Assembly: GCA_002118135.1 (NCBI GenBank)
Contig: BDIU01000404.1
Location: 1-64,000, forward strand
DNA length: 64,000 nt
DNA from: Trebouxia sp. TZW2008
Taxonomy: Eukaryota; Chlorophyta; Trebouxiophyceae; Trebouxiales; Trebouxiaceae
Direction: 5' to 3'
In this document: piece by piece, positions 1 through 64,000 of the stretch
Numbering within the stretch: position 1 is the first letter of the stretch
Layout: each line of letters starts with the position of its first letter
The notes under the pieces: generated by a model
The model's database searches: none
Told to the model about the DNA's origin: nothing
The model's input: only the letters and a program-made list of their open reading frames with translations
Program-made: the position numbers and the translations under genes

Positions 1-3000
1 TGGTGGGTGTAACCAACGAGATGGAAGCGGTGGCAAGCCATAAAAACCCACACGCTTTAATATCCAAGTTCTCAGACCTTCTCAAAAGCTTTTTGTACAA
101 AGAATAGAGTTGCAAATATGGGCATTGTGACAGGGCCACAATGTGCATACATCAACTGACAGATTGCTGCAGCCACTATGCATTGAACAGCAGCAGCTCA
201 CTGAGGAGGGTGTCTTGCGGGATCACCATGCAGTCCTTGAAGCCAGTCGAAACCGGCCATATCATGACATAGACAACAACTTCGAACAACCCAGAGCTCA
301 GCAACAAACCATGAGAGGTTACTGTCACAGCATGACTGTAGCTTCCTACCAGAAAGCAATGCAACCCGATTGAGTAATGTATTCCAAAACTTAGAGCTGT
401 CTATTGCAAACTGCATGTGAGCCAAATATCAGGTAGCCATTGTGCTAGTGATAGTGTGCGTTGACTGCACAAGCATACCTGAATGATCCTGTCTGGGTCC
501 TGATTAGGGACCAGGCGGCATGATATCTTGGCAGTGGCCTTGGAAGGCACAATGGTTTTGATGCCTGTGCCCTGAAATCCTCCATAGATTCCGACCACAT
601 CAAGTGTTGGCCGAAGCCACCTACAAGTTCAGAGCGGTACAATGCGCAAATCTGACAGAAGCAAATGCGACTAGGTATCAGGCGGCATGACATCTGGGCA
701 GTGGCTTTGGAAGGCACGATGGCTCTGATGCCTGCTCCCTAAAACCCGCCATAGATTCCGGCCACACCAAGTGTTGGCCGAAGCCACCTGGGAAGCCGCA
801 ATCTGCAACTTCAATCACCCTCACATGAGGGGTGTGTAGCACTCACTGACTAGCACAAGATGCAAGCTTCATGAAAGCAGCAAAGGAGTCAGCTGTTTTT
901 GCATCTGCAAGCCAAACAGGGCATGTACACAAGCCCATTGCTTCTTGCAGAAACTGCAGCCAAAAGTCATGCAACAATGCAAGCTAGCAGAGTATGTAGC
1001 TGTTGCATGTATGCTGCCTGCTGCCCATCAACATTATCAACATGTGCTCGAGCAACCTGACACTGCTCATTTACCATGACCAAGCACAGGTCGTACATAT
1101 AATGTGGTGGTTCTGCAACATGTTGCCAGCAAGCTTTACCTGCGCTCCAGGGTTGTATAGCCCTTCTCACCGACAGGCAATGCACCTCCCAGAGACCGGA
1201 ACTCTGCCTCCTCGTCAAAGGGAAAAGCAGCCAAGTCCTCTTTATCTTCACTGCCTATAGCTTTCACAGCACTGCAGCCAGTCAGGGCATCACTTTGAAG
1301 GCCATCAATGTATCCGGTTTCTTTACATTGCAGTCAGTCAAAGGCATTGCTGTCTATAGCTTTCACTGCGCTGCAGTCACTCAAGGGCATCAACAACTAT
1401 AAGGTTCTCTGGGCAGTCATCTTGAGATCTGACAAAGCCATCTTCTGATGCAAGACCACCAGATATGTGTACAGACGCTGTGCCGTCATTGAGCTCCTAA
1501 GACACGCACCACTGTGATGCTACTGTGTAAGGCTGCTGTGCAGTGCTACTGCGCAACGCTGTTGTTTGTGCAATCAGTGCAGACGTTGTGAACTTGACAT
1601 GTGCATTTGCGATGTGTCCAGACCATGAATGAGCTGCAAGCATCCAGTTGCAATCAGAGTTGCAAAAAAAAGCTCACTCATAGAAGCCTTCGACAGTGAT
1701 GTGGCCATCACCATCTTGCATGCCAGCCAATAATTTGGTCAGGGCATTGATTGGATTTAGTACTGAGCCGCCCTTCATTCCTACGAAGGCAGTCAAGACG
1801 GTTATGCAAAGATGAGCAGTCGATGTCGCCTGTACATACCTAGCTGGGCCCCTTGAGCCTGCCTAGCATGCATTGGTTTGTGAATGAACAATGACAGGAT
1901 GCAAACATCATGCTTTTGGATGTCCCTTGGTTCCTTGCTGCCTTGTTGACTGCTCACTAGGCCATGCAGGCCAACGTAGCATCATGTCACAGCAGCGTGT
2001 GCAGAGCCAAACACAGGGCAACGGCTGCTTTCTGGTTGCATGGTTTGGTTCCCACATGCAGAGACCCACACTGTTCACTGTGGCAAGGCAAGCAGTCAGT
2101 GTGCAGCTTCTTGACTGAGCACGGGATGTATCTATAGGAATCAGTGTTGTTGAGCATATTCAGGCATTGTTTTATGTTGTGTCAGCTGCCTCGTTGCTGG
2201 CCTGCCTGAAGGCCAGTCTGGTGAGTTGAGCAGTATGCAGGGCAAGGACTGCTTTCTGGCACCTTGACTACTTCCACAGCAACATAACGTGTAGAAATCA
2301 AGCTGCTTTAGCATGGGCAGGCATTGCGTCAGTGTTGTGTCAGCTGCTTGCCTGAGTGCTGATCTGATGCCAGAGTCTGCAGCTCAACCTCGACAGCGAC
2401 TGCCCCTCGCAGGCCTATTGCCAAAGTGCCTTGGTCCCTGAAGTTTTGCCCACCGTCAGCAGACAAGGCGTAATCTGCCTGAAGTAGCTTGCTGTTGCTG
2501 GATAGGAAATGCCCAAAGTCAGGACTGCCCACCTCTTCCTGACCCTCTATCACAAACTGTACCAGAAGGATGAAGGTAAGACCAGACAAGCACGTCCTAT
2601 TGGGCGTTTCATCCCCTCAGCATGGAATTATGCATCATATCATGCTGGCGTGCAAAGACTGGAATGCATCAAACGAGAGACTTGCTGATGCTTCTGCCAC
2701 CAACAGCTACTGAAGTAGACGCCAGCCTATCTCTGCATGCATACCTTCACATTGATTGGTAACTTGCCCTCAGTCTTGAGCAGTGTTTCAACAGCTTGAA
2801 TAGGTTGCAACAGCCCACCCTTATCATCAGCAGCTCCCCTGCCCAGGAATTCTCCATTGATAAGCTTGGCATCAAAAGGCTGAGTACGCCACAGCTCCAC
2901 AGGATCAACTGGTTGTACGTCGTAATGACCATAAATGAGCACTGTTGGGGCGCCTTTGGCATGCAGCCATTGACCGTACACAATTGGCTGACCCTTTGTT

Positions 3001-3536: not shown

Positions 3537-3900
3537 CCTCGTGTCGAAGACAAACCAGAAGCAAGGTGCAACCTCTGCAAGCAATTTAGCAGGGCCGCAC
3601 TGTCACAAAGCTTAAACCCAATTGCCCGCTGCACGCAGTGCTTTTGAAGCTGCAATGTTTCGTTCCGGAACGACCCTAATGGAGCCGATGTATCAACTGT
3701 CATATATCGAAAAGGGAGGCGAAACGGCTGTTCAGATTTTCAAACTTTGTCTAGGTCAAGCGCTGCGCTTGAACGAGCGCCATTCATGCTAGGAATTTTG
3801 CGCGTCCGAGGGGTTCGTGCGATTTTAACGAGCTGCAACTCGTATCGGTCGGCGTCCCGCCAGATTGCATTCTGCCACCAAAATGATCTGCACCTGCCTA
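3420..3900. promoter_or_regulatory. CpG-rich divergent promoter between M20 peptidase and AP endonuclease
   Basis: This stretch covers the 5' part of the peptidase gene and the gap toward the AP endonuclease. CpG dinucleotides are plainly denser than in the surrounding introns, which are TG/CA-rich. No clear TATA box was seen. The role as a bidirectional promoter is inferred from the divergent gene starts. Confidence 0.45.
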
Positions 3901-4085
3901 GGCACACGCACTCGGTGCACCGTACCAGGCTCTGCACACAAAGGCCCCAGCTTCAAAGCCGCAATCATCAAGCTGTGAGCCCGACAGCCAGATCAAGACT
4001 TCATCACATGTACTGCCAACTCGCTGTTCATGGACTTGCTGCTATATTTTTGCCCAGGACTAGTTGACAAGCTACAGCAAATGCA

Positions 4086-7000
4086 GGGGCAAAAGGAAAA
4101 CAGCCGCAGCTGCCGCCTCTCCACAAAGCGCCAATGAGAACGCTGCACAGCATCATGACAGGTCTGCCTGCAAATAGCTTGCACTCTACAGTTGCTGCGC
4201 TGTCGTACTCAAGCTCACCTGCTTTTGCGTGTGCTCAGCGATTCAGACACCAGCAAGCAAGGATCAACCAAAAAGCGAGGTAGAAAGAAGGCTGCAGAAC
4301 AGCCTGGTATGCCTTCTATCCCACTCACGCATTCCATGCCAACCAATTTGTGCATCAGACAACATGTGCCCTGCAGAACATAATGCATCACATACTGGCA
4401 ACCACATGATGCCACTCAGTTTGCGTAATAGCGATCACGCTACTCATCTCATGCCCGTCAATGTGTGCATCCAGAACAACACATGGCCCTCAGAACACAG
4501 GGCATCATAGCAGCAAGTTCACAGTTCAACCGATGTTGAAGAGAAGCTATGTTACTGATTGCAGTTCTGCTGGCAATACAATGTCTCAATGCAACCAGCA
4601 GCATTGGCAATCTTGCTGACTGCAGTTCTGCCAGCGTACAATGTCTCAATGCGACCAGCAGCATTTGACGGGCCGGCCATGCGGGTGCTCAGCTGGAATG
4701 TGGCCAGCTTAAAAGCCATCCTCACCAAGGTCAGCCTATGTCATAATATGTCACAACATGGCATAACAGTGGACATACTCATAAAAGCCTGCCATCTCAT
4801 GAGTGTCAAATTCATTTCTCGACTGCAGCATTGCGCACTTGTAAGGTGCTGTGCCTGAGACTGTTCTGCAACCCGAAACGAGGCCAGATTCGTTTCTCAA
4901 CTGCAGCACTGCACACTTGTGACGTGCTGTGCCTGAGACTATTCTGCATGCTTGAATGTGGCCAGCCTGAAAGCCATGCTTGCCAGGGTCAGCCTGTACT
5001 ACAGCAACACATAGAATCAGAAAGAAGGAAATAAAGGCAATGGAGAAGTCTATGTCTCTAGGCATCATACAGGGACCCTCTGTTGATATGTAGCCTGGGA
5101 GAACCACAAATGCCTGCAGCTGTTAACCTCTTAACCCTCACATCTCATATGCATTGTTGCATGGTCAGAGTTTGCATTCGACAACTTTGCAGTGCCACAC
5201 GCAATCTGCCTGCCAGCGCTGACCAGGATCCAGTTGCTTGACTTTGACCATATGTTGGAGTATCTGCATGTTCAGTCGCGTGACACTGACTACCCACATG
5301 TTGATCTACACACATGTTCAAGCACAGATGCGTTTGCCAACAGCATCTGCGCAAGCAGATTCTCACACAGACTCACCACGAGTGACCCAAGTAATCACTG
5401 CTTACAAAAGTCACAAAAGATAGCAATCAGACTGAGGCAGAAGTAGTCCTGATATGGCCAACAGCGATCAAGCAATTGGTAGAGGCAGAGGATGCTGACA
5501 TTGCAAAATCCAGAAGAAGAAGAAACCTCAAAGCAAAACGGTTCTTGGTATGCAGAACCCAACAGCAATGAACCAAATGACAGAGGCAGAGAATGTTGAT
5601 GTGGCAAAACACAAAACAAAAGAACCCAGCCAGCCAGAGCAAACAAATTCTTGGCATGCAGAACCCAGCAGCAATCAAGCAGTTGGTGGAGGCAGAGGAT
5701 GCTGATGTGGTCTGCCTGCAAGAGACCAAGATGCAGGACAAGGCCATTGAGCAGATGGAAAGTCTAGTGGGCTTGTCAGGCTGGCACCATTCTTGGAACT
5801 GTTCCACTGCCAGGAAAGGCTACTCTGGCACTGCCATCGTCAGCAAGTAAGGCGTGTGTGGTACTAGCTTTGTTGTCAGCAAGCAAGGCATGTGTGGTAT
5901 TGGCTTTGTCAATCAATCAATAAAAAGAGTTTACAGTCTGGAGTAGGCAGCCAGATGTGACTCATGGGATTTCCTGGCTTGAAAGCACAAGTGAATGTGT
6001 CTGGCAACCAATGGCAGCTGATCAGTGTTTGACTCAAAGAAAAGGCGAATGTCTCGCTGATGAAAGGCTGAACCAAACAAAGCAAAGTGTTGACATTGTC
6101 GCTTTCTTGCCACAAGCTTGCGTGATGACACTGAAGGCGTCTTGTCACAAGCCTGCCTCGCAACAGTGAAGGTGTTTGTGTTGCTTTCCATGCCGGCAAC
6201 AATGACGGGGCTGTCAGGCTGGCAGCATTCGAGACTGGTCCACTGCCAAGAAGGGCCACTCTGGCACTGCCATTGTTAGCAAGTAAGACATGTGTTGTGT
6301 CAGCTTTGTTGCATTGAGTTGTGAGGCAAGCTCAGGACAATCAAGCTGAGCTTGCTTTGTGACACTGAGGGTATATGTGTCGCTTCCCAGGCTATTGCGA
6401 CAACGTCCTGATTGCTGGGCTGGCGCTTGTTTTGGAACTGCTCCACTGCCAAGAAAAGCTACTCTGGCACTGCCATTCTCAGCGCGTTGGGCATCTGTGG
6501 TAATATCATTTCGCAGATCAGTCCGAGCACATTTGCGCCACAGGCCAGAGAATGTGTCTTCTGATTACGCCGCTTTCTGACAGAACTTTTTGTGATTGCA
6601 CAGGAGCAAGCCTGTATCTATCCAGCTTGACATGGGCAAAGATGAGCATGACCAAAAGGGGCGACTCATCACAGCAGAGTGTCTATCACTCTATATCGTC
6701 AACGCATGCATACCCAACTCATGGGAGGGCCTCAAATGACAAATCTCTGCAAATCAGTCCAAGTACATCTGCGCCACAGGTCAAGACCGCTGTCTTCTGA
6801 CTATGCTGTTTTCTGGTTGAGCTCTTTGTGATTGTACAGGAGCAAGCCTGTTTCTATCCAGCTTGGCATGGGCAGAATAGAGCATGACCAGGAAGGGCGA
6901 CTCATCACGGCAGAGTACCCGTCCCTCTATGTTGTCAATGCATATATACCAAACTCAGGGGAGGGCCTCAAACGGCTAGATTACAGGCTCCAGCAATGGG

Positions 7001-8944
7001 ATATCCACTTCGCAGAATATCTGCAGCAACTTGCAGCAAAAAAGCCGGTGGTCCTGACTGGGGACCTGAACTGTGCACATCAGGAGATGGACATTCATGC
7101 CCCGAAGAAGAATCTGCGGTCCGCAGGCTTCACACAGGTGCTGGTCATGGGTCACTGTGCTAGGTTTCTGACCCAATGCAGGTTTCCTGTGCGCAACGTC
7201 GCATGGCAGAATGCATTCCTAGCTGATTATGCCGTCCTGTTTGCTTGCCATTTGCCTTTGGATTGAGTGCAAGTGCAGATGTACAAAACGGCCATGGCTG
7301 CCTGAGTGGGCTGCATCAACATGTTTAGCCTACTGCTGCAGCACAATCTGGGCAACATTGTATTCATTGGCATTGATACTGCAACAGTCAACGATTTTTC
7401 CTTGATCCTAAGTTGTGTGAGGAGCCATCTCATGTGAGTTCAAATGCAGCCATCCACCCAAAAGGAAGCAAGCATACCGAGCGTTGGCAAACTCTGTTTG
7501 TACAGCTTGTGACATCAAGCACCGACCTTACACCTTGCACGTCAGGAAAATATGGTCTCTGTGCATGGCCTGATCCATACATGTTTGCAGGAAGAGCGAG
7601 ACTCCTTCAGCAAGCTCACTCTTGGCTTGGCATCAATCATACAGGCTCCCTGAAGAAGACCGTGGCCTCCTGCCTTCATAATGACAGGAAGCAAAGCTGC
7701 GACCATATATGCTTGCTGAACATGTATATCGCCTGATGTGTGCTGGCTTGCAGGAGGAGCAAAACTCGTTCAGAAAGCATGAAGCTCTAGTTGTCACAGT
7801 CCCCATGACACCAGGATGTGCTTGTGATTGGCCAGTTGCAGTCGCAAATAGCACTTAGGTCAATGTATGGCAGGATACTCTGACTTGACAGCAGTCTCAT
7901 ACTTTGCTCAGGCTCTTGCACCAATCATAAAAACTCTCTGAACATGAGTATGGCCTGTGAACGTCGCCTGAAGCATGCTGGCTTGCAGGAAGAGCGAGAC
8001 TCTTTCAGCAAGCTAATCTTAGGCGGCGGCTTCACAGACGCCTTTCGCCGCCAGTACCCTGACGTGACGGGGTACACATACTGGAACTATCACTTCAATA
8101 CGCGTGCCAGCAACAAGGGGTGGCGCCTGGACTACTTCCTGGTGAGCTATGCATCCAACAAAACATGAGCAACAGGAAATGTTGTATCAGGGTGAGCCAT
8201 GCATTAAAAGCAAAAGTAGATAAATTTGGACTAGCGCTTGAACCGCCGTACCAGCAACAAGGGCTGGCGCCTGGATTGCTTTCTGGTAGGCCATGCATTC
8301 ATTGCCTTTATTCTTTCCTCAACACTCTTGTCAGGACAAAGACATTTTCTGAGTTTCTTTCGCTAAAGAGAATTGTGACTTGATTTTGTGCCATGAGGCT
8401 TCATCATGCAAGACTCTTTAAGTTAAGCCGCTTGGGAAGCATGCAACAGAACGCCAAAAACTGCATCTGGTGCGATAATGTCTTTTGGAACTTTTGATGC
8501 AGCCGGTTGGAACGCTGACGCGTCGCTCACTCGTAATGCGCCTACTCACTACTACCAACTGTGTGGAACGTAAACAGGCAAAGCAGGTATGACTACAACT
8601 GGCAAAATGCAAAAATCACTGATTTGAGTGTGATCATAGGTCAAAGCAGCTGCATTGCTGCAGATGCATGCTGTATGCATTGTTGACGATCACCACACAT
8701 TGCGAGTATAGCTTGTCAGCTTGTATGAACAGGGCAACCAGCTATTGCCACTGTTGTTGATCAGTCTGTTTACTGACTGAAACATGGGCGCTGAATCATT
8801 GACTGCTGCAGTAAGCTGTTGCTACATGTCATGCAGGTTACAGAGCCGCTTTTGGAGCAGGTGCATGACTGCTTCCACCTCACAGACTTCATGGGCAGCG
8901 ATCATTGCCCTGTAGGTATAGTGCTGAAGCAGCAAAGCACCTAG
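4086..8944 (+). CDS. AP endonuclease / exodeoxyribonuclease III family
   Basis: DNA-repair endonuclease (APE1/ExoIII, EEP fold) that cuts 5' of abasic sites in base excision repair. An N-terminal basic, Ala-rich tail ([12 protein letters not shown] near 4090 and [13 protein letters not shown] near 4262) resembles a nuclear signal. Catalytic-domain exons: one ending 4729 ([17 protein letters not shown]); 5662-5846 (CLQETK with the Mg-binding Glu, [17 protein letters not shown]); 6840-7137 ([40 protein letters not shown]); 7989-8141 ([37 protein letters not shown]); 8837-8944 ([19 protein letters not shown], stop). Junction phases agree: 0 after 4729, split AA|G after 5846, and 0 after 7137 and 8141. 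All signature residues (N, E, Y, D-x-N, SDH) are present. The first exon and initiator ATG were not fixed. The long introns are filled with decayed copies of the exons. Confidence 0.92.
4560..5000 (+). repeat. Tandem duplications around the AP endonuclease '[10 protein letters not shown]' exon
   Basis: Three local duplications are visible. A ~60-bp unit at the start of the exon (ttctgctggcaatacaatgt / ttctgccagcgtacaatgt, 4563-4670) occurs twice. A ~90-bp intronic unit (gcactgcacacttgt-type, ~4796-4950) occurs twice. At 4955-4998 a degenerate copy of the exon itself (gaatgtggccagcctgaaagccatgc) sits downstream of the real one at 4696-4729. Confidence 0.75.
5455..5600 (+). pseudogene. Two ghost copies of the AP endonuclease '[16 protein letters not shown]' exon start
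   Basis: Just upstream of the real exon at 5662 are two diverged copies of its first ~45 bases. The one near 5455-5503 contains 'gcgatcaagcaattggtaga'; the one near 5553-5600 contains 'gcagaacccaacagcaatga'. Each breaks down before the CLQETK motif. Confidence 0.75.
6200..6485 (+). pseudogene. Two ghost copies of the AP endonuclease '[20 protein letters not shown]' segment
   Basis: Copies at ~6206-6290 and ~6408-6482 repeat the end of exon 5662-5846, including 'ctactctggcactgccat'. The first has a one-base loss that shifts the frame. The second keeps [14 protein letters not shown] but then diverges at the donor. Both lie in the following intron. Confidence 0.75.
6603..6735 (+). pseudogene. 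Ghost copy of the AP endonuclease '[11 protein letters not shown]' exon
   Basis: It repeats the first ~130 bases of exon 6840-7137, with its own acceptor (cacag|gagcaag). Translation gives SKPVSIQL, then a shift near 'gacatgggcaaagatgagca'. Later remnants match LITAE and NAYIPNS. It stops before the GDLN motif. Confidence 0.78.
7590..7800 (+). pseudogene. Two ghost copies of the AP endonuclease 'EERDSFSKL' exon start
   Basis: At ~7590-7630 and ~7750-7790 the sequences 'gaagagcgagactccttcag' and 'gaggagcaaaactcgttcag' repeat the start of exon 7989-8141 together with part of the preceding intron ('gctggcttgcagga'). Both decay within about 30 bases. Confidence 0.7.
8190..8300 (+). pseudogene. 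Ghost copy of the AP endonuclease '[12 protein letters not shown]' exon end
   Basis: A diverged copy of the end of exon 7989-8141 (reading [12 protein letters not shown], followed by 'gtaggccatgc' in the donor position) lies about 110 bp downstream. The conserved Tyr of the GWRLDYFL motif is Cys here. Confidence 0.75.
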
Positions 8945-9444: not shown

Positions 9445-12400
9445 TCATTTGCTGAAGCACCGCTTGTCCATGAGGCGTACATTCGGCATCAAGGGCTTGA
9501 AACCCATCAGGTCTAAAATATCCTTCTGCAAATCAACTCCTGCAGCAATGCAAGCAGCAGGTGTGATTGACTAGTACAACCAAGGTGTCCATCTAGCTGT
9601 ATCTGCCACGCTGGCAAGCAGATGGGATTGCTACAATTTGCAAACAAGGCAGTTATGCACTGCAAAGTGACAGTGCCATACTGTGACACTGCAGTGATGT
9701 CTTGCATATCAAAGTCAGACAAGCCCACAAAGATGAGACATGCCCACACTGACATGACCCTGACAATTTGATCAGGAACAAGCAAGACTTGCTGTAGCAG
9801 TGCAAGGCACTAGCAGCTTGCCATGTAACAATTGTGCTTTGCCAAAAGTCAAGAGAAGCCTGTTCATACACCTGGCACACTCAGATCACCAGGTGAAGCT
9901 AGCAAGACTCCACACACGGTTGTGCATATACCTGGCGCAGTGTCAAGCTAGCATGCACTTCTGGTAGCACATGCTTTGTCTCACTTGCCAGTAAACTTCA
10001 ACACTGCATAACACTAGCCAGCAAATTCAAGACAAGCCTGTGCATATACCTGGTGCGATCTCAACAAGCTCTAGCCCCTTCCCTTCCACCAGCCTGAACA
10101 CAGCCCTTTCTGTCACATACATGATGGCTCTACCATTGGCTGAGCTGCCTGCAAAGGTCTTCTGCTGCACTTTTTTGGTGAACTTGCGTGACCGGCCCTC
10201 TTGATCTATTTGAAGCTTTCCTGATTCAAGGTGCACCTGTAGATCAAGCACTGTGCTCAGCCAGATGCTCGTTGTCACTTGCACTTGCATGGCATGCACA
10301 TTGTTGCATGTATGAGCTTCCCTGACCAAGTGCTTACCAACAATCATTGCTGCTCATGCCTATTCTTTTTTTTGCTTCAGTGGCAAATGCTGCACAGCAC
10401 TTTGCGGCCTCAGGCTGAAGCAAACCAGTCCCAACATTTTGAACAACACCAGCAAGTACCTGTTTACACTCCTGAGGCCGCGGTTGAAATGCAACATGTT
10501 ACAATAAGACAGCAGCGTGAGCTGGGAAACTTGGAAGATAAACAGCCCGTCTTGTGATCCAAACTCTGCTGAATGTGTATAAGCAAAATTTTGCCTTCAG
10601 CCCTGCTTGGGTGGGAAAAGCAGAATGTTGTGTGCAAGTCTGCGGTGGCGTGTAGAACCAGGTGGATGTGATGAATCCCTTGAGGCCGATGCGGGTGAAG
10701 CTGCCAACAACCACACCCTTTGTGGCTGTCTGCTTGAAAGCTGCAATGCAAAAGAAGGAGAAAGAGAGGGAATCATTACCTTGGGGCCGCCGCTGGCGAA
10801 GCTGCCAACAAAGACGACCTTCATTACTGTCTTCTTTGGAAAGCCACAAACGAAAGAGGAAGAGGGGAAGCCATTACCTTGAGGCCGCCGCTGGTGAAGC
10901 TGCCAACAAAGATGACCTTCTTGGCAGTCTGGCTGATGTCAATGAACCCGCCACAGCCCGGCGTACGCGGCGGGAAGTACGACACATTCACATTTCCTTC
11001 CTCATCTACCTGCATGCACACATTGAAAGTAATGTAGAAAGCTTGAGTGCCACTGCAAACTGATACATTCGTGGCTGTGGTCAAGGAACTGGTCGAAAGC
11101 ACCCCACTGATGTGTGTTTGGAGCCCAGACATTGGCAATGAGCAAAAAGAGCTGACTGTGAAGGGCTGAATTGCATCCTGTAGGTGCTGTGCTTCACTGC
11201 CCATGTCAGAGCATGTACTCAAGAGACACATATGTCACAGGGAATGGCTGCATGTATGCAAAAGCCAAGGTTCTGAGTGATGATCAAAACACAATGATGA
11301 TGGTTACACTTTCCAGCACATGTGCTAGGTGTGTGTGGCTCTGCGTGACTTTGGCTTCACAGACTTATTGCTGAGGTTGCGTGCAGAGAATGCCACTCAG
11401 CTGCTACATTGGGTAGTAGGGAATGCATCAATGTTGTCAGAAGATGCAGAGCTTGCTCACACATTGCGCAAGGCAGCTGTGAGTGCTGAGGAAGTCATGA
11501 CAGACACCGCCACCCCTTCTAGCAAACAAACAGCTCACGCAGAGCTTGCAAGCATGTTTGAAGCAGACACGCACCTCAGCCATGCCTGAACAGGCAGCAT
11601 CCATGCCACAGCCACGGGTCAAGTCAAACATGCTGCACAATGCATGTGGGCACCTGCATTGTGGCCGTGTGTTCTAGCAAACAGACAGCTCATGCAGAGC
11701 TTACAAGCATGCCTGAAGCAGACCCTCACCTCAGCCATGCCTACACAGGCAACATGCATGCCACCACCATAAGTCAAACTATTGGCACAAGGCATGTGGG
11801 CAGCTGCATTGTGACCATGTGTTCTAGCAAACAGACAGCTCAGGCAAAGCTTCCAAGCATGCTTTGACCAGACCCGCGCCTCAGCCATGCCTAAACAAGC
11901 CACCTCCACACAGCCAACATTACAAAGTCATGAGTTCTGGCACAAGGCATGTGGGCAGCTGCGTTACCTCAGCCATGCCTAAACAGGCAACATCCACACC
12001 ACCACCATTGTAAAAGTCAATCATGCTGGCACAAGGTATGTGGGCGGCTGCATTGTGGCTGGCGCCAAATCTGAGGCCTCCTGTGGGTACGCCCCCAATG
12101 GACCCTGCTTCTGTCGATAGGTTGATGGGCAGCGCTGAAGAGTTGTGATGACCATGAGTGGTGCAGATGGTCGCCACACCCTGTAGGTTAAGCCAGAACT
12201 CGGCCTGCTGAGCCGTTCTAGCATGCGTTTTGAATGATTGAAAGAATGAACAAGCAATCCTGAGCACATGTGGACTCTAAATGCCACATGACATGTTGCT
12301 CTGAGGCTAGTGCTGCCAGCGTTTTGGTGCAGCTTCTGAGTTGCTGCAGCTCCCACATGTCGCTGTGCATGAGCATTGCACACTGATGCAGAAGTGGTGT

Positions 12401-15529: not shown

Positions 15530-18496
<2,967 letters not shown>

Positions 18497-22400: not shown

Positions 22401-25400
22401 TACAGGCCAAAGTCTGATGGCTAATAGTGCATGGCTTTGCGCGCTGAGATCAATGATGAAGCACCTGTTGGCGCAGGCCAAAGGTCATTGTCTGACAATG
22501 CATGTCATTGCAAGTTCTGGACAATAATGAAGTCATGGTGGGATGCAGGGCCAAGTTCAATGTCTGAATTTTCAAAATGTTGCAAGTAGTGAACAATGAT
22601 GAAGCACTTGTGGGCTTAAGGCACAAAAGCGAAAGCATGGCCTAGCAGGCGAGGGAAATTTGGCCAAAACCTGTTTCATGAACTCCAGCTTTGAGAGCCT
22701 GGCTTACACTATAACCCCATGCACAACCTGCTCCAGAACCAATGTTGCAGCATTTGTGTGGTACAGGCGCAAGGACGGGAGCATGGCTTAGCAGGTTTGG
22801 GTAATTTGGGCAATACCTGTTTCATGAACTCCAGCATTCAGAGCCTTGCTCACACTGTTCCCCTCATGCGCAAGTTCCTGGGCAAGCGGTATGAGTCAGA
22901 CATCAATAAGGACAACCCGCTGGGCATGAATGGGGAACTGGCTGAGGCTTTTGGGAATTTGATGGATAAGCTTTGGCAGGCAAGTTTCCTCTGCCAATGT
23001 GGCTAATTTAGCTTTTGCTGATGGTTGCTCTGTATTTCTGATCGGCCAACAACATGCGTTTGTCAAGCATTTTAGCCGTTTCATTCACGCTCAACTTGCT
23101 GGTTGCTGCCTATCGGTGTTTGGCACCAATCCAGTGTTTGTCAACTCGGCTGGGGCAAAGCATACGCTGGCTGTTTACCATGGCTGTGTATACCTGAGAA
23201 TGCACATGACCTGGTATCTTCACTCTTATCTGCCACAGAAGATTTGTGATCCTGGAATGAGTGAATTGAGGGTTGGTTCGACACCAATACGGCCTGTCCC
23301 AAAATAGCCTGTCCAAAGGCATTTGGTGGCTATTTGGAAGCAGTTTTCTGCTGCTGCATGCCCCTCGCACCGTCGTGGCATCTCCCTTGCAAGCATGTGC
23401 TGATGAATGCAGGACAATACAGCGCATGTCAATCAAACCAACTCTGATTTTGCACTGATGTCACAACTTACGCTCCTGCAATGCAGGGTAATACAGCGTT
23501 TGTGACCCCCAGTCACTTCAAGTATCAGCTGGGCAAGTTTGCCCCTCAATTTCAGGGCTATGGGCAGCAGGACAGTCAGGAGCTGCTGGCCTTTCTGCTG
23601 GACGGCTTGCATGAGGACCTCAACAGGATCAAACGCAAGCCTTACATTGAGGTGTGTTCTAGTATGCATCCATGCCCATTGAGACATCAGCCTTGTGGTT
23701 ACATGCAGTGCATGTATTGTTTGTCGCCACAGCAATTGATCAAACCCTCTCTGCAGGCTGAGTTGTTACTACGAGAATGGGCATGCATAGATCTGATTGC
23801 ATTTCTTGTGGATGTGTAGGAGAAAGATGCCAATGGCCGGCCTGATGAGGAAGTGGCAAGGGAGGCCTGGGACAATTACAGGAAGCGCAATGACTCCACT
23901 ATTGTGGACCATTTCCAGGTGGGCATGTTGACCTCCCTCCCTTGCTGTTTTGCCCCCCCCCCCCCCCTCCACCCCCCCCCCTTGCTTTTTTCCCCCCCCC
24001 CCCCCTCTACCTGCAAACCCCCCCTCCCCAGCTGCTCCTGCCCTGTGCATGCCTGTCATTTGACAAAGACCGACCCCATGACTGATTGCATGAGAATTCA
24101 CTCCTGCCCAAAGCCATACATCAATGTACAGTAAACTCTCACTTTCACGACACTCGATATAACGACACTCGGACCTTGCCCATGCGCAGTGTGATTGCCG
24201 TTATATCGAGTATATAATGAGTGCTCAGACTCGGCTGCAGCTGACTGATGCCGATCGCAAACTGATCTGCGAGCTGAGATTAGCAAACAAAGACTTGTCT
24301 CAAGAGCAACTGACAAGACTAGTAGCAGCAAAGATAGGCAAAGAAGCACTTGACCGCTCCACAGTGACTTACCTCTTGAAAAGAGGCCTCAAAGTGGCAC
24401 AGTGACAAAGACAGTCATGCACAGAGCAGCACAAAGTTTAGACTTGGACACAGCTCTGTATGCATGCTTTAGATACGATAACATGTTTGTGAACAGGATG
24501 TCAGAGAAGGTGGCAAAGACACAAGATTCCCATCCCGACAACCGGCAGCAGCGCAACATCACATCATACTTCAGCACTGCATAGCTGTAGTCAGTTTTGT
24601 CTTGCAATCTTACCAGAAATCACCAGCAGTTTTGGTGCAGCTGTATATCTGATCAAAACAAAGCATATGACACCATTTGTAGCTTGCATGACTGAGCATT
24701 CCCGCCTTTACAGCCAAGATTTGTTGTAAGGACAATTAGCAGCTAAATGTCGTTACTTCCAACTAGGGACAATTCGATGTAAGGACAATTTTCTTGGTAA
24801 CCAGTGCAGTCGTTATATCAAGAGTTTACTGTATATCATCTTATCTGGACTGCCCTTGAGCTCAGTGACCAATCCAGCGTCTGGTGTCTAGTGTCCTGTC
24901 CCTAGCTGTGCTGCAGCTTGACCTGAAACCTTGCCTTTTAGCAAAACGCTGTCAATCAGCTTTGTAGCGCTTGTAACCTGTGCATGGTCACCTGCGCGCT
25001 GTTCAAATTTGGCTGTGCCCCACAGGGTCTGTACAAGTCAACCTTGATCTGTCCAATGGAAGATTGCCAGTTCCACTCCATCAAGTTTGACCCCTTCATG
25101 TACCTGTCGCTGCCTCTGCCTGACAAGCGCACACGCAACTTTGAGGTGACTGTGGTCCATGTGGACGGCTCCAAGGTCCCTACCCGCTACTGTGTCACAG
25201 TGCCTGTCACAGGTCAGCACTCATTGCATTTCTGTATGGCATGTCCATGTACTTGTTGCTGCCTCTGGCTGATAAGCGCACCCACAAGCTTCAGGTGACT
25301 GTGTTGCATGTGGGCAGCTCTAAGGTCCCTACTCAGTACTGTGTCACAGTGCCGAACACAGGTTAGCACTGCTTGCTGAAAAGTGCAAGTTGTCTGATGC

Positions 25401-28400: not shown

Positions 28401-31400
28401 GCTAGAACATGTGACCCATCATCATATTATTGTTGTTTCAGCATGTGCAATGTGTGCTGCAATCTGTACCTCATCTGCTACTTCACTCTGCAGGCCTTTC
28501 AAGCGTCCAAGGCAGGAAAGCGCTGGGCTCAACAGCAATGATGCAGGCCACAGTCGTATGGTGCGCAGTCGCCTTGCCTCTTCCACTTCCAGTGACTCAC
28601 CCATGACAGATGCTGCAGCAGCTTCCTATACGCCTAACAACAACAGCCCCACTCAGGACAACTCAGCTGCAGCAGGGCTGAACGGAACTGCCCACAACGG
28701 TTTGGCTGAGGGCAACTCGACGGCAGCAGGGCTGAATGGAGTTGCCAACAATGGCTTGACTGAGGGCAAGTCAGCTACAGCAGGGCTGAATGGAATCACC
28801 CATCAGCAGCCCAATGGGGAGCTTAGACCGTATGAAGAGTTGCTACAAGGCAGCCCGCCTTCAGCCAGCAATGTCACCACCAATGGAATGAGCGATGTGG
28901 TAAGTCCCTTGCACCATGAGTCCAACCGCAATGGCTACGCTCTCAATGGCGACAATGCACACAAAATGGGCAATGCAGCAGCTGACAGCGGTGATGTTGA
29001 GGAGAGTAGTAAGCACAAGGGGGCGCCAAGTCTGAAGAGAATGTCATGGATGGAGCCAGAAGCTGCATCAGTCAATGGGCACCCTGATGGGCAGACTAAT
29101 GGACAGGCTAATGGGCACCTCAACAGGCAGGCTAGTGGGCAGATCAATGGGCAGGCTAATGGGCAAGCCACTGGAGCAGAAAATGGGCAGGCAACTGGTG
29201 ACGCTGATGGCACAGAATGGGAAGACGTCCCTGAAGCAGAAGCGCAGACATCGTCTCCAGTCATGTTTGAGATGGACAGTGAGCAGACAGACACAGCTCA
29301 ACCCTTGCTGCCTGCTGCTCGTGCTGACCTCAGTGCGTCACCCATTGTCCCAGCAGCCCAGCCCTTCAATATGTTTGCTGGTCAACAGGTGAGCTGCTGT
29401 CCTGCTTTTATGTGGACTCATTGACAGGCATGCTGCTCAGTAGGCTGTGGGCTGTCACTTGAAAGATGCTGAGCTGAGCATACCCTGTGTGTCTCCTTCT
29501 TTCAAGCACTGCTTTGCCAGTATCAGCTGCAAGACTAGCTACATGTCATACTGAACCGTACGTGCAGTGACACTGCCTTCAGGCAACCTTGCAAGAACCC
29601 TCACAGCCATGTAGCAGCAACAAAACTGTCAGCTGTGTTACTTGGTATGCTGCGTGCTCATAACTTCCTACTTCCTGCTTTATTATTTACTACACCTGCT
29701 TGAACCATTGTGAACAGCTGACCTGCTAAGGTTTTGCACCCTGGACTCCTGGAATGCATCTGCTTGCTATTATGTAGTAGAGGCACCTCAAATAGCGGGT
29801 TTTGCCTTGTCATGCTTATACATCTGGGCCATGTACCCATGGCACCCGTGGCGACAAGTGTAAGTCCTCACTCTTATTGCTTATGCAGATGCAGCAAGCA
29901 GTGACCAGCCAGCCAGGGGATGCAGAAGCAGATGTGAATGGCCAGGCAGCTGCAGAGGATGTGCCTTCATGTACTGTCAAATGTGCCAACAGCTGGGGAG
30001 ACAATGTACATTTATGTATATGTATGATGGTGTCACATGCAATTCTGATTATATGCAGGTGCAACAGGCAGACACCAGTCGGCCAGAGGACATAGATGCA
30101 GATTTGAATGGCGAGGCAGCTGCAGATGATGTGCCGCCATACACCGTCAAGTGTGCCAACAGCTTGGGAGATGTCAGGTTGCAGAAGTGCCCTAGCTCTG
30201 AAGGGCAGGACGTGCTGTACTTCACATGCCAGTGGGAGCGTGACGGTGGCGGCATGTATGATGTTGCCAAGCTGATACAGCCTGAGGTTAGTCTTCTTTA
30301 CCTACAGTGTTGCTTTGCTGCACACTGTGCATGGTGCTGCTGAGCCTGCACTGGGATTCTGATAGTGGAGGTATGTATGGTATGGACAAGCTAATACAGC
30401 CCGAGGCTGGTCCTGTCATGTTCCTTGCTGCAGGCTTAGAGTGTAGTGTGAATTAAACTGATGAACATGCAATGCTTAGCCTTTCTGCGGCAGACCGTGG
30501 AGATGAATCATTTGCAGTGCATGTACATGTCAGCAGCTGTTGCAAATGTGCAGTCTCTTGATCAGCAGTGAGCAATATACCAGGAATCCCCAAGAAAGTC
30601 TGGAGTCAGGTTTCAGCAGCAGCGTTCCTGTCACCAGCAAAATCTTGTAGCAGATCTGCCTGCTCAACAGGTTGGGCTGTGGATGGACCCTGGGTCTCCC
30701 TGTTGACCATGCCTGCTGGGTCACCCCTTCCCTTTCTGTTGTTACACTGCCTACCACGCCAAACTTTGGGCATACACCGAATTTCCAGTCTTGGCCACTA
30801 TAGCTTGTAACAGTAAGGGCCGCTGTGTTTGCTGCAGGAGGACGAGTCAGTGGCGAGGGCCAGTGGGGTGGCCAGCACCAGTGCCAGGGAGGCAGTAGGG
30901 CTGGATGCCTGTGTCCAGGTATGCTTGCAACCTGCCACCTCATGAGACTGGATCGTTGCAGCTTCGCTATGCATCGGTTTTCTTTGACGCTTCAGTGACA
31001 GCAGATGATGTATGAGGCTCTCCAGGTGCAGCAGCTTATGTTGTGCCGCATATGAAGTCCTGTGACGTCGCAGTAATGTAAATGATGGAAGTACTGATGG
31101 CACACATTACCAGAAGTATGCTGAAGGCAATCACGTAATAGTAATTGTAACGGCAAGAAGTATCATGAGGTTACCACTCATGCTTGACAAGACATTACAA
31201 CGCTGCAGGCTTTCCAGACAGCAGAGTAGCTAAAGGCAGAGGACAACTGGTTCTGCAGCAAGTGCAAGCGCCATGTGCAGGCAAACAAGAAGCTGGACCT
31301 GTGGGCTCTGACTGTCTCTTCTCTTGTGTTTTGCTGCTTTGAAATGATACCATCTTTCACAAAATGCTACAATGCTGCAGGCTTTCCAGACAGCAGAGGA

Positions 31401-45130: not shown

Positions 45131-45348
45131 GGGTCAGCTCCTGTTAGCCCTATTTAGGGTTTGAGATCTTGTAAATTCAAATGTTGCTTGTCTGTTGACA
45201 ATGCGTTCCGGAGGTGCTGTCTTCGATCCTTGCGGATCGTTGAATGTCTCGTGGAGCTAAGCTGGAGGAGCTTCCACAGCCTTAAGCTCCTACCGCCATC
45301 TCTTCCCGTACGTTCGTGCTTTGGAGTGCAGAACTTGTCTGGCTGGTT

Positions 45349-45483
45349 GCAACGCTAGTCGTATATGGGCTCTGCAATTAGCTGCGTTACATCGGCCATC
45401 ACCCTCCGAAACCAATTGGAACGGAAAGGGTGATGGCCGATGTAACGCAGCTAATTGCAGAGCCCATATACGACTAGCGTTGC
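45349..45483. repeat. Perfect 57-bp inverted repeat with 21-bp spacer
   Basis: The arm 45349-45405 (gcaacgctagtcgtatatgg...) is the exact reverse complement of 45427-45483. The spacer itself contains CCAATTGG. The DNA or its transcript could form a very stable hairpin. It is flanked by CpG-rich sequence unlike the local background. Confidence 0.95.
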
Positions 45484-45584
45484 TACAACACTTAAGATCG
45501 CGCGTCCCCGAGCGACACATAATCTCACGGACACGGCAAGGGCCACGCCCCTCATCACAGGACGCATCATGTACGTCGGAGAGA

Positions 45585-45672: not shown

Positions 45673-45680
45673 TCCAGAAT

Positions 45681-45758
45681 CCGAAACCAATTGTATCGAA
45701 AAGGGTGATGGCCGATGTAACGCAAAAAATTGCAGAGCCCATATACGACTAGCGTTGC
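45681..45758. repeat. Third copy of the inverted-repeat arm with part of its loop
   Basis: 45702-45758 repeats the right arm with a short block changed (cgcaaaaaattgc for cgcagctaattgc). The sequence just before it (ccgaaaccaattgtatcg) matches the hairpin loop (ccgaaaccaattggaacg). The element thus has at least three related arms within 410 bp. Confidence 0.9.
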
Positions 45759-45770
45759 TACACAGGAACA

Positions 45771-60200: not shown

Positions 60201-63200
60201 GCTTCAAATCATCAACAACTGACTCCCGAGCCAAATGTCTTTCGCAGTGCTTTTTGTGTCACCTCAAACATGCCATCATTGAAGATGGGGGTCTTCCAGC
60301 CTTTGCTGGTGTCCTTGTAGGTGTCGGACAGGCCCCATATATCCCTCCCACCCCCATAGCTCTGCAGGTTCAACAGCACCAGCGCCTTCACGCTGTTGGG
60401 GATGCGCACCGCCTGCCACTTGCCATCCACCCCTTTCACCTAAATATAGGTGGAAGTCAGGTGACAAGTCAGGTGCAGTCAGTTGGCATGTCAACTAAGA
60501 GTCTGACCCTGAAGATGGGCTGAGCTGAATCTCATGAACAGGCTGCCTGCCGCTTGCCAGGTGAATCACGGAATGTCCAGCTGCAATGTGGAGTGCCCTT
60601 TCGAACGAAAGTCATCACAGCCAGCTGAGATGATGCACCAGCTGACAGCAGTGCCTACCATCCCTTCCACCTGATCTCAAGCACAGCCAGCTGGAGTGAT
60701 GACATTGACAAGCAATCTGCTGCCAGGTTGAGCAGGGCTTCACCTTGATGGTGATTGTGGTTTGGTAGACATTGACAAGCAGCTGTTTGCCAATCCATCA
60801 TCATTCACTTGGAGGTGGCAGTGCCGTTGACGATTTTCTCACACAGGCTTCAAGTCGAGAGTGGCAGTGGAGTCAACGGGTTGTGACAAGCTTCTTGTTG
60901 GTACCTAGGGAGGTGTTCAGACAGCGTTGTGAAGCTCCTTTTTGCAGGCAAAACCCCTCAAAAGGGCTTCACCTTGAAGGCAGCAGCTGATTGCCAGTTG
61001 AGCAAAAGTTTTTGACAAGTTGACCAATGTTGTCAAGGCCACAACAAAGCAGCTTGCTGCCAGTAGTTCACCTTGAGTGTGCTGATGATGTCGAGAGAAT
61101 GTTGAGAGCATTTCACACCTTGAGGGTTGCGGTGGTGTTGAGGGGCGGGGCACAGCAGAACCAGCCGGAGGCGCAGCTGAAATAGGCGTACCAGGCCTGG
61201 TTGATCAGCCGGCTGGGGGCTGCCCACGGCTTGCTCTCCCTCAAGTGGTGGAACCCGTACGCCGCTTGCGCATCCAGTCCTACGCTGAAGTAGTTGTAGA
61301 ACAGCCCTTCTACCTGAGAAGACCAGACACTGTAAGCAGCAGCAGGACCACACCTGCTGTGTTGTATGTTATTGCTTGCGAAAGATACAGCCAGGCTGCC
61401 ATAACAGGACAAGGAGGGTTGACAGTGCAAGACATGCTCTGTGAAACACACAGGTAATGATAAATTGCTGCTAGTTTTCAGCCATACTGCCTCATAGGCT
61501 GAATGAGTTATGGCAGAACTGCACCAAAGAGGTCCAGCGTGGGGTAGTAACTGGCTGACACACAAGCCAGCAAATGCTAAGTGGCTCAAGGCATATGCAC
61601 TTCCGATGAAGGGTCCAGCACATTGTTGCCACAAGGAATGAGGCAATCAAGTGCAGAGATTGTGCAATGATAGGCTGCCGACCTTTGCTTTAGGCCTGGT
61701 TTGGGTCTGCAGGTCCCCCACAAGTGCCAGAGAGTGGGGCAGCTGCTTGAAAAGGCTCTCACTACCTGAATGACACAACTCTGGCTTAGTCAACACAAAC
61801 AGGTCATGTCTACATGTACAGCATCTCTCACAGCTGTGCACTGGAAAAAAGGCAGCAGAGCTGTCTCAGCAGCACACGTCGTTCTCATATGGTGATGATG
61901 CTCTCACAACATCATCAGTTGCTGCAAGTGAGGGAGCAGCATGCGCTGACCTGCTGTGATGGCAATGTTCCAGGTGTCCAGATCACGCGGCTCTGCATCG
62001 GCTATGCGCTTCATTGTTGCATACAAGGTCTTATAGTCCTGCATGTCAACAAGAGCAGCAGCTGCAAAAACACAGCGGCAATACAGGCTTCTCAGAAATC
62101 TGAACACAAGCTGCTGCTCTTTTGCTGCATGTGCTTGCTTTAGGCTGCTGACTGCCTGGTGCTCAAACACATGCACTATGACTGTGCTACCCAAACCTGC
62201 TGCAATCTTTTGTAGACACTGGGATGTGCTGATGGTACACAGCTGTGAATCAGTGATTCAGCTGAGATGCCTCTGTAGATCAGCAGTCTGAACTGCTCTA
62301 CATCGAGTCAGCCGTCTATTTGCGATGCACAATGGACCACCATCCACACTGAAAACTGGACAAGTCGTAAACGCCGCAACTGCCACTGCCAAGTGCAGCT
62401 CATGCATGCTGCAATCTATGAGACTGCTGCAGAACATTCGACTTTTTGCCATGTGTGCAGCACAAGACACAAAGAGCGGATCACACTGCAACTTACTTTT
62501 GCAGGAAGGTGTTGCCTGAGCCCAAGTTGAATGTGATAATGTGTTGCAACACAGTAGCTATGTGGATCACTACAGAAAAGGGTAGAAGTGTCATTTAGCG
62601 CACTTGTGCAGGAAGGTGTTGCTCCAGCCAGAGCTGAGGGACAGGTGGCTATCTATTCATAGTGAAAGGAAGGAAGAGAGAACAATATGAAGAAGACGTA
62701 CTGCAATCCATTTGTGCAGGAAGGTGTTGCCCCAGCCAAAGCTGAGAGACAGGTCATTGCCAGTACCCAAGGGCATGACCGCCACAGCTGGGGCAGGCTC
62801 CAATTGCAGCTCCCTGATGGTCTTCAGAATCCAAGCCACTGTGCCGTCACCCCCCGCTGCTAGTATGCGCAGCCGGCTGCAACAGCGCAGTCCACTGTCA
62901 CAGCAAATGGCAGCTGACTGCATCAGCTGTATGGTGACAACTTGCTGTGATGACACTCAGTCAATGGCTCCATTTAGTGGGTTCTGCATGAAACGGTCAT
63001 AAAAATCCAGGCCACTGTGCCCTCTGCTCCTGCTGTAAGTGTATACAGCCGGCTGCAACAGCAAACTTCTTTGATGCAGGGCCGTGGAACCTTATTAGCA
63101 AGCCTGTCAACAGTGGTGAGGGAAGTACAGTAAAGTCTCTTTGTAACGACTGCTTTGGATACCAAGAAACTTACACTTACATCAGACTGTTCTTACTCAA

Positions 63201-64000
63201 AGGGACAACTGCAGTCAGAATGCAGTAATTGGTTACCAATGACATTGTCCTTAGTTTAACATTATCCTTACAACAATGTCCTTACAATGAGAGCTTACTG
63301 TACAAGAATGCCTAATGCTAGTAACTCATGCCAGAATACCTGCGCACCAGAGCAGCCATCTTGTCCCCAGTTTCAATGGCTGCTGCCAAGTTTGCATAGA
63401 TCTTTTGCAGAACAGGGCCAGGCCGATACTCCCTCAAGTCATACACCTGTGCATGCAACAGCACTTGCAGTCAAGGCAAAAGAGTTCTGTCATGGTCACA
63501 GCTCCCGTTGTGACAACTTGTTTGAAGAAACAATATTGGCCTTGGTACAAAGCTTGCAGTCATGAGTTGCACATCAGACAGAAGGATGCAAATCACGCTT
63601 GTCAAACCAAGCAGGGACACAAGCAAGGGATGCTGCTGTTGCATGTACTGCCTTAGATATGCTGCTTGCTTTATGGCTGATACAGAAAGCTCTTGATGTG
63701 GCAACAACTTTTGTTCCCAAGAGAATCGTCCTTACATGAATTTGTCCACACTCAATCAATGCCACTGCAGTCACAATGCAATGATCGGTTCCAAAGTGCT
63801 GTGTCCTGACAACAAGGATGCCCCTGTTATCAGGTTTCCACACTGACAGTTTGCTGTACGCACCTGAGAGTGTCCGAGCGCATGGAAGAGGGTTTCAGCC
63901 AAAGCAGGCCCTGCTCGACCGCCTGATCTGGAGTTGATAAAGACAATAAGAGGTGCTTCAGGACAGTCAGGCACGACAAATTTCTTAGTCTCTCGCAGGT
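57290..64000 (-). CDS. Diacylglycerol kinase, 5' end outside window
   Basis: Phosphorylates diacylglycerol to phosphatidic acid in lipid signalling. In transcript order: the exon ending 63864 (APLIVFINSRSGGRAGPALA) opens the catalytic domain at the window edge. Then 63446-63340 (VYDLREYRPGPVLQKIYANL); ~62880-62707 (LAAGGDGTVAWILKTI with the glycine-rich loop, AVMPLGTGNDLSLSFGWG); ~62070-61950 (YKTLYATMKRIADAEPRDLD); ~61770-61680; ~61310-61110 (FYNYFSVGLDAQAAYGFHHL, accessory domain); ~60440-60250 (VKALVLLNLQSYGGGRDIWG); ~59500-59284 (GLYYKVHGLRLAQANEMQLD, LDGEPWQQ); ~58950-58800 (IHVTPSGTSNMLFNTKKLQG); ~58560-58370; and a Gln/Ser-rich repeat tail to the stop at 57290. No C1 domains are in view; they would lie upstream if present. 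Confidence 0.9.
57560..58020 (-). repeat. In-frame ~28-residue repeats in the kinase C-terminal tail
   Basis: About five units share QSASLQGQSTSxxxxQxQLRP followed by a variable xGSSD/GSTEG piece. They form most of the last exon. A disordered, length-variable tail is inferred. Confidence 0.88.
58325..58362. repeat. (GAGT)n microsatellite in a kinase intron
   Basis: Eight or so perfect GAGT tetramers near 58329-58360, between the repeat-tail exon and the previous exon. Confidence 0.95.
58955..59045 (+). mobile_element. Truncated pogo-type MITE (copy D)
   Basis: Starts with CAGTAACTTGTCCTTATGAT preceded by TA and contains the family segment 'aattctgaccgcagtgcc'. The right end is missing. It lies just outside a kinase exon. 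Confidence 0.65.
62500..62645 (-). pseudogene. Two ghost copies of the kinase 'GWGNTFLHKW' exon end
   Basis: 'Tgcaggaaggtgttgctcca' near 62607 and 'tgcaggaaggtgttgcctga' near 62500 repeat the end of the real exon (~62715-62740, 'tgcaggaaggtgttgcccca'). They read roughly LSSGWSNTFLHK and a weaker version. The GTGND motif is absent. Confidence 0.78.
62998..63062 (-). pseudogene. Ghost copy of the kinase GGDGT loop
   Basis: Reads RLYTLTAGAEGTVAWIF, against RLRILAAGGDGTVAWIL in the real exon (~62826-62880). The Gly-Asp of the nucleotide-binding GGDGT loop has become Ala-Glu, so it could not work catalytically even if spliced in. Confidence 0.83.
63128..63300 (-). mobile_element. 173-bp pogo-type MITE (copy E)
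   Basis: Ends CAGTAAAGTCTCTTTGTAAC and ...CATTGTAAGGAC-type inverted repeat finishing GAGAGCTTACTG, with TA on both sides. It is inverted relative to copy A (gcagtcagaatgcag inside). It lies in a kinase intron. Confidence 0.85.
63695..63858 (-). mobile_element. Degraded pogo-type MITE (copy F)
   Basis: It carries family motifs in the same orientation as copy E (cgtccttacatgaatttgtc, cactgcagtcacaatgcaat, ggttccaaag) and ends near 'gacagtttgctgta'. The left end is eroded. It abuts the donor of the first kinase exon in the window. Confidence 0.6.

Follow-up and report, generated by a model that had tools for sequence, protein, structure and literature searches.

How do introns come to hold damaged pieces of the exons beside them? 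The question is raised by a stretch of DNA from the green alga Trebouxia sp. TZW2008, referred to below as the window, which runs from position 1 to position 64,000 of contig C380 (BDIU01000404.1) in an assembly of 68.54 Mb and 527 contigs. An earlier note on this stretch had described introns of at least five genes, named as those for an M20 peptidase, an AP endonuclease, a CoA-transferase, a ubiquitin protease and a diacylglycerol kinase, as carrying diverged copies of the adjacent exon. Our analysis points to small direct tandem duplications that have accumulated densely and fall in any sequence; where one of them straddles a splice junction, it leaves a decaying exon fragment in the intron. 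We put the probability of this reading at about 80%. Two Trebouxia assemblies of 63.7 and 69.1 Mb are given in a published account (PMC12712428).

Exon fragments and the side on which they lie

Protein homology placed the 93 exons of the set, of which 23 belong to the window and 70 are chaperonin (TCP-1/cpn60) exons on other contigs. One CoA-transferase match among the window exons falls below the Pfam cut-off, and reading was used to set the edges of the first M20 exons; likely ubiquitin protease exons near 26745, 27595 and 30052, together with a CoA-transferase exon near 10852-11060, were left out of the set. The chaperonin exons derive from a Pfam search with 80 matches, some of them weak (E up to 0.58), of which 70, on 9 of 12 contigs, were used, and 10, on contigs C308, C45 and C215, were left out. 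Three chaperonin loci (L023-L025) were chosen first, after overlapping model ranges had been noticed in the Pfam matches. An exon copy was called where self-comparison (E ≤ 0.01) gave a direct pair no more than 1.5 kb apart, with one copy overlapping the exon by at least 15 bp, and the exon end covered and the side of the copy were recorded.

Copies accompany 19 of the 93 exons (10/23 in the window and 9/70 chaperonin exons, which lie in 5 of the 9 loci), amounting to 34 pairs at 25 exon ends. Fragments of 5′ exon ends all lie upstream of the exon, and fragments of 3′ exon ends all lie downstream, at 25/25 ends and in 34/34 pairs. The chaperonin loci alone obey the rule at 11/11 ends, and the CoA-transferase case, which lies outside the 93 exons, follows it too. 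If sides were random and ends independent, the probability of this result would be 2^-25 (3e-8), or 2^-11 (5e-4) for the chaperonin loci. The window had been flagged for exactly the exon-copy feature, and its rate is therefore inflated; the chaperonin rate, about one exon in eight, is fairer, and amounted to 4/23 exons in the first three loci and 5/47 in the other six.

Whole-exon copies are absent (0/25), the largest copies spanning 119/142 and 113/135 bp of their exon. What is copied in each case is one exon end, usually with its single splice site, which corrects the earlier description of "copies of the adjacent exon", and none of the 25 cases is wholly exon-internal. Random placement of such units would be expected to give one-ended cases in 77.5% and other cases in 22%, compared with the 25/25 one-ended cases observed (P = 1.7e-3). 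The marginal case among the 25 is in locus L029, where the pair has an offset of 1430 bp and includes 15 bp of exon.

The one-sided rule indicates tandem duplication across one splice junction, and not random insertion of exon copies in neighbouring introns: the copies are direct and local, span exon and intron, and lie on the predicted side in every pair. Specifically, a duplication spanning an acceptor would leave the downstream copy joined to the rest of the exon, while the upstream copy would become intron; a duplication spanning a donor would be the mirror image, with the downstream copy becoming intron. The spare copy, carrying one splice site, would then decay inside the intron. Whole-exon duplications, and out-of-frame exon-internal ones, would presumably arise too and be removed by selection. 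When compared with the homology-placed exons, 25/25 copies lie outside them and look swallowed by the existing intron; alternatively, a new small intron may exist.

Insertion of dispersed exon copies, whether transposon-borne, retroposed or made by template switching, would accommodate the copies that lie 300-640 bp from their exon. However, random insertion would put only half of the copies on the side where all 25 are found, and no inverted exon copies were seen, the only inverted exon matches being self-hairpins in L028 and, at a looser cut-off, L027. Furthermore, four of four exon/copy stretches used as DNA queries matched only their own place in 68.5 Mb, at the sensitivity of that search, and do not have the relatives at many unlinked sites that characterize dispersed repeats or introners. 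We consider insertion of this kind exceedingly improbable.

Comparison of the exon part and the intron part of the duplicated units gave further information. For 23 exon ends (those with offsets of 439 and 1430 bp were excluded), identity is 81% in the exon part and 59% in the intron part, compared with 54% for random intron pairs. The intron part is clearly alike (z > 3) at 9 of the 23 ends, indicating that the duplicated unit extends into the intron, at least there. Exon parts stay alike because selection preserves one of the two copies, whereas the intron parts are free to drift in both. A general process thus takes on an exon-centred look, since exon parts remain recognisable longest.

The earlier note had proposed that the copies explain the long introns. 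In support of this, gaps between matched chaperonin exons have a median length of 564 bp where they hold a copy (n = 10) and 293 bp where they do not (n = 51; one-sided p = 0.0016); however, long introns may alternatively just hold more copies.

Single duplications across a splice boundary are known. In a potato gene, a tandem duplication across an intron-exon boundary created a new intron, and the same gene carries an 83-bp tandem duplication in an intron (PMC4974935). In both the potato gene and the alga, a direct tandem duplication runs from the end of an intron into the start of an exon and takes the acceptor with it. The potato case differs in that it concerns one gene and a new intron, whereas in the alga the existing intron appears to have absorbed the spare fragment, at 25 exon ends and in 19/93 exons. 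Among the open-literature matches listed, none surveyed exon fragments at splice boundaries in an alga. In the main text of the Trebouxia sp. A48 genome paper, "tandem" does not occur, and "intron" occurs once, in the reference list. The density of the events and their one-sided, statistically testable geometry look new here.

Local direct duplications and their possible origin

Self-comparison of the window, the check proposed in the earlier note, gave 55 pairs, of which 41 are direct and within 1.5 kb, 3 are direct and farther apart, and 11 are inverted; a shuffle of the window gave 0 direct pairs, compared with the 41 real ones (shuffle controls were dinucleotide-preserving, with one shuffle per sequence). 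The duplications extend beyond the window. Outside it, 231 kb (0.3% of the genome) were examined, consisting of 21 arbitrary loci (182,910 bases) and the chaperonin loci (48,500 bases). Local direct duplications are present in 17 of the 21 arbitrary loci, where 172 direct pairs compare with 26 inverted ones (the pairs are not all independent), and the 9/70 chaperonin exons with copies likewise lie on other contigs. With a lag-neutral detector, 262,410 bases yielded 523 segments, grouped in 119 clusters; shuffles yielded none.

The earlier note had described the process as tandem exon duplication. The idea of a process aimed at exons was dropped, as coverage by local direct duplications is higher in the arbitrary loci (19.0%) than in the window (13.1%) or the chaperonin loci (8.6%). 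The duplication is not aimed at exons but falls in any sequence, and exon parts are the best visible since one copy is conserved.

Mis-joined haplotypes, a possibility that the earlier note had itself raised, or duplicated contig ends would make the copies assembly artefacts. Such errors do not fit pairs that differ by 12-40% and carry frame-breaking indels, duplications that occur on many contigs, or copies that follow gene geometry, and we regard this as the least probable of the explanations considered.

The offsets are consistent with the recurrent duplication, spanning exon and intron and followed by decay, that the earlier note had proposed at roughly this unit size. For 55 clusters of the arbitrary loci, the smallest offset has a median of 156 bp and falls between 90 and 240 bp in 52/55; for the exon cases, the median is 172 bp (n = 23; here, as in the indel analysis, the pair with the smallest offset was taken for each exon end). 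Offsets of 130-180 bp make up 25/55 in the arbitrary loci and 12/23 at exons. A sharp peak at nucleosome length was considered and rejected: the distribution is a broad hump, with lag-neutral counts about even from 80 to 180 bp and then falling.

Near-complete head-to-tail units were found in the window (6513-6972) and in four arbitrary loci (L007, 6836-7173; L009, 2812-3157; L010, 6590-7117; L022, 5655-6010). Multi-copy degenerate arrays with periods of ~124-200 bp are present in L005, L011, L012, L016 and L020. Two of these loci contain kilobase-long, highly degenerate, satellite-like arrays (L011, 3489-10000, and L012, 4931-7434), with smallest offsets of 149 and 174 bp. In total, 49 of 93 clusters are single pairs and 44 are multi-pair.

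The duplications are local and direct in every locus group sampled, with offsets typically of ~160 bp and units that are sometimes demonstrably head to tail. With less confidence, we suggest that the units may arise when staggered breaks or paired nicks are filled in by synthesis and rejoined by end joining. Rice work by Vaughn and Bennetzen (2014) reportedly dealt with small tandem duplications made by staggered-break repair. In mouse and human cells, small tandem duplications form via staggered-break repair, and the staggered-break model had been put forward from insertions that occur naturally in humans and plants (PMC8355091). The duplications described there resemble those of the alga in being direct, local and placed in arbitrary sequence, some of them head to tail; those of the alga are mostly 90-240 bp, are old and cover 9-19% of the sampled sequence, and the proposed repair route would apply to them by analogy.

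Replication slippage or unequal sister exchange, which would make the duplications minisatellite-like and not products of staggered-break repair, is a tentative but real possibility. The degenerate arrays with periods of ~124-200 bp and the 44 multi-pair clusters are features shared with minisatellites and satellites and speak for it. The 49 single-pair clusters speak against it, and the four tested exon/copy stretches, having no other match, are likewise unlike minisatellites. Fresh units of ~160 bp without prior repeats are, moreover, atypical of slippage.

A wider proposal is that, in this algal lineage, repeated tandem duplication of nucleosome-sized segments, perhaps from paired nicks at the repair of methylated, deaminated CpGs, is a main route of intron and genome growth, that the splice-junction cases are its fossil record, and that splicing reliably picks the innermost of two duplicated sites. 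We regard this as unlikely.

Decay, constraint and age of the copies

Exon/copy pairs in the window range from 60 to 88% identity, which bears out the graded decay described in the earlier note. In-frame stops within the aligned codons are present in 6/25 copies, and frame-breaking indels in 10/25 (stops and splice sites were read from the best-scoring pair for each exon end). These lesions mark the fragments as decaying.

Tandem exon duplication, including that which yields mutually exclusive exons, is a well-known source of alternative exons, and the earlier note had seen the copies as raw material of this sort. According to such an explanation, whole exons were copied, spliced as alternative or extra exons, and later lost. 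The alga shares with it the presence of exon-like copies beside an exon, and 19/25 copies are free of in-frame stops in the aligned codons. Furthermore, the ratio of nonsynonymous to synonymous change (dN/dS) between exon and copy is 0.34 (0.28-0.41; 24 exon ends, the one with an offset of 1430 bp excluded). This is below the 0.48-0.50 obtained at low transition bias (kappa of 1.6) in simulations of a free copy beside a constrained exon.

Transition bias, CpG rate and exon constraint were varied over 12 settings, with 150 neutral simulations for each. The observed mix of changes was reached in 5 or fewer of 150 (~3% or less) in 8/12 settings, comprising 4/4 at a kappa of 1.6, 3/4 at 3 and 1/4 at 5; the other 4/12 do not reject neutrality. 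A simulated copy under a constraint of omega 0.5 (kappa of 1.6) gives 0.27 (0.20-0.34), which is too low, and strong coding constraint on the copies is excluded. Tandem exon duplication fails to fit, since the duplicated segments are not whole exons: the copies are decaying fragments of one exon end, and with 0/25 whole exons no copy can have both splice sites of its exon. Together with the frame-breaking indels, this makes an origin by whole-exon duplication highly improbable, and a contribution of the copies to alternative exons is not supported.

Alternatively, the copies could have been maintained for a regulatory function, as decoys or as alternative splice sites. Of the 23 copies in which the splice dinucleotide could be placed (out of 25 exon ends), 20 retain it, and the deficit of amino-acid changes could be taken in the same sense. 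However, a hand estimate at 80-85% identity gives 15-17 of 23 expected by chance, such that the excess is small and the retention no strong sign of splice-site use, and stops and frame breaks are common. We consider a regulatory role improbable.

Cytosine methylation and loss of CpG dinucleotides had been suggested as the path of decay. The window has a G+C content of ~49.5%, is depleted in CpG (observed/expected 0.40) and has a TpG ratio of 1.68. Between copies (49 single pairs), 18% of CpG is conserved, compared with 54% of GpC, indicating that CpG decays fast, and much of the point decay may be CpG deamination. The hypermutability of CpG agrees with the suggestion. Loss specific to the copies is only a trend and not decisive: over exons, 26 CpGs were lost, 16 of them only in the copy.

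Several observations weigh against the reading of the fragments as freely decaying remnants of tandem duplications across splice junctions. First, exon and copy differ by fewer amino-acid changes than expected for a freely decaying copy in 8/12 settings; this deficit may reflect slight past constraint, conversion by the exon, or misjudged mutation bias. Second, the intron part has z ≤ 3 at 14/23 exon ends, so that head-to-tail structure is unproven for each of these. Third, offsets of 317-639 bp and of 1430 bp need extra duplications or insertions, or are due to chance. Fourth, 4/9 chaperonin loci have no case at all, while L029 alone holds 4 of the 9 exons. Fifth, the breakpoints are too eroded for microhomology or prior repeats to be read from them, and the units exceed in length the under-100-bp class of PMC8355091.

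Finally, young copies are scarce. The best pair per cluster (55 clusters, arbitrary loci L002-L022) peaks at 80-85% identity (17/55), with 3/55 at 90-95% and 0/55 at 95% or above, although short ungapped stretches of 24-78 bp at 93-100% identity do occur. An ongoing rate of duplication is therefore not demonstrated, and the ongoing process suggested in the earlier note is not clearly supported. The scarcity may mean that activity has slowed, that young identical repeats are deleted again, or that they were collapsed in the assembly.

Little is documented of why introns grow, and of which mutations lengthen them where transposons do not dominate, since insertions in introns decay until they can no longer be recognised. 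Exon fragments, which are recognisable via the conserved exon, act as oriented markers of small tandem duplications. With about one conserved exon in eight so marked, rates, unit sizes, selection against whole-exon events and the choice between duplicated splice sites would become measurable. The fragments also carry a warning for annotation, as gene finders that rely on proteins will pick up additional, broken pieces of exons in genomes of this kind.

Genes and other elements of the window

Diverged exon pieces were recovered in neighbouring introns of all five genes named in the earlier note: by tblastn with homologues and DNA self-comparison for the M20 peptidase, AP endonuclease and ubiquitin protease, by Pfam (exon) and DNA (copies) for the diacylglycerol kinase, and by a YdiF match (exon) and reading (copies) for the CoA-transferase. 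The estimate of more than 20 copies was about right, with 18 exon/copy DNA pairs in the window, one copy seen as protein only, two CoA-transferase copies, and likely candidates.

The M20 peptidase lies at the left end of the window, and its closest proteins are a metagenomic one (77%) and one of Trebouxia sp. C0005 (76%), which points to a probable host among the lichen algae of the Trebouxia group. The working copy of exon 7 (479..620, minus strand) was placed by tblastn with P0001-P0003 at 88-92%. A copy of its 5′ part lies upstream (669..789, minus strand), with the acceptor AG kept and one in-frame TAG (DNA 87%, offset 167 bp; tblastn 71%). The Pfam family M20_dimer scores exon 7 at 30.8 bits and this copy at 15.3 bits, below the family cut-off. 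Exon 4 of the same gene has an apparent GC donor (CAG|GCAAGC), not GT, at about 2346-2351 (minus strand).

In the AP endonuclease gene, on the plus strand, four exons have copies. The exon at 4676..4729 (tblastn with P0246; P0242 matches from 4637) has a copy of its 3′ end downstream at 4950..4995, with the donor GT kept (85%, offset 258 bp). The exon at 5662..5847 (tblastn with P0241, 86%) has copies on both sides. Upstream, a 5′-end copy at 5413..5498 was found by tblastn and DNA self-comparison, and a second, at 5553-5603, is seen as protein only (tblastn). Downstream are two 3′-end copies, one at 6208..6311 with the donor GTAAG kept (83%, offset 439 bp) and one at 6418..6510 (80%, offset 639 bp; tblastn 79%). 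Upstream of the exon at 6838..7137 (tblastn with P0241, 87%), a copy of the intron tail and 5′ part occupies 6513..6736 (82% over 224 bp aligned, offset 236 bp); it is part of a near-complete head-to-tail unit of 236 bp, with z = 12.4 for the intron part. The exon at 7986..8150 (tblastn with P0243, 70%) is preceded by two 5′-end copies, at 7551..7623 (79%, offset 398 bp) and 7729..7778 (84%, offset 235 bp), and is followed by a copy of its 3′ part at 8216..8301 that contains two in-frame stops (74%, offset 144 bp).

The CoA-transferase exon lies within about 10852-11060 on the minus strand (match to YdiF 2ahu, E 2e-10), and two decayed copies of its 3′ end lie downstream, on the same strand, at 10655..10840 (self-comparison 72-77%, offsets 101 and 197 bp; translation).

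The ubiquitin protease gene, on the plus strand, contributes four exons. The exon at 22779..22979, which encodes the catalytic-Cys motif, was placed by tblastn with P0121-P0127 (56-72%), and a copy of its 5′ part, including this motif, lies upstream at 22633..22713 (tblastn; self-comparison). This copy apparently forms the terminal part of a degenerate 142-bp tandem array, which seems to extend from 21090 to 22873, over 1.7 kb and into the first conserved exon of the gene, with 60% over the array. The exon at 25026..25214 (tblastn) has a copy of its 3′ part downstream at 25246..25376, in which the donor GT is kept and the aligned exon part is stop-free (82%, offset 149 bp). The exon at 31366..31608 (tblastn) is flanked on both sides, by an upstream copy of its 5′ part with one in-frame stop (31179..31310; 86%, offset 172 bp; tblastn) and a downstream copy of its 3′ end with the donor GT kept (31687..31765; 73%, offset 137 bp). 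Upstream of the exon with the His box (32596..32796; tblastn) are a copy of the intron tail and 5′ end with one in-frame stop (31875..32100; 67%, offset 549 bp) and a second copy, of the 5′ part with the start of the His box (32274..32346; 81%, offset 317 bp; tblastn). Likely further copies, beside candidate exons only, lie at 26407-26850, 27595-28123 and 29882-30171. An intron of this gene contains poly-C tracts at 23931-24005, and a single long reading frame from the protease region, searched against the PDB, gave no match.

The catalytic-domain exon of the diacylglycerol kinase (62711..62872, minus strand; Pfam DAGK_cat, E 7e-14) has two copies of its 3′ end downstream at 62485..62646 (minus strand; DNA self-comparison, offsets 107 and 215 bp) and one of its 5′ end upstream at 62995..63062 (minus strand), with the acceptor AG kept (78%, offset 176 bp).

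Rfam and tRNA searches of the window gave no matches. Long open reading frames contain in-frame tandem repeats at 28651-28795, 29104-29165 and 37651-37868, whose unit lengths (54, 24 and 75 bp) are in each case divisible by 3, a point in favour of the duplication reading. A dispersed element of ~180 bp with inverted ends (TACAGTA...) is present at 20919-21098 and 35767-35943 (plus strand) and at 63126-63304 and 63681-63859 (minus strand), with parts at 24764-24833 and 16345-16465. It has at least 41 further matches in the genome at 80-90% (40 scored of 1306 first-look candidates) and is probably a small DNA-transposon derivative. A palindrome at 45346-45487 is 92% self-complementary over 144 columns and has a predicted fold of -125 kcal/mol, identifying it as a predicted fold-back element; a related stretch lies at 45680-45762.

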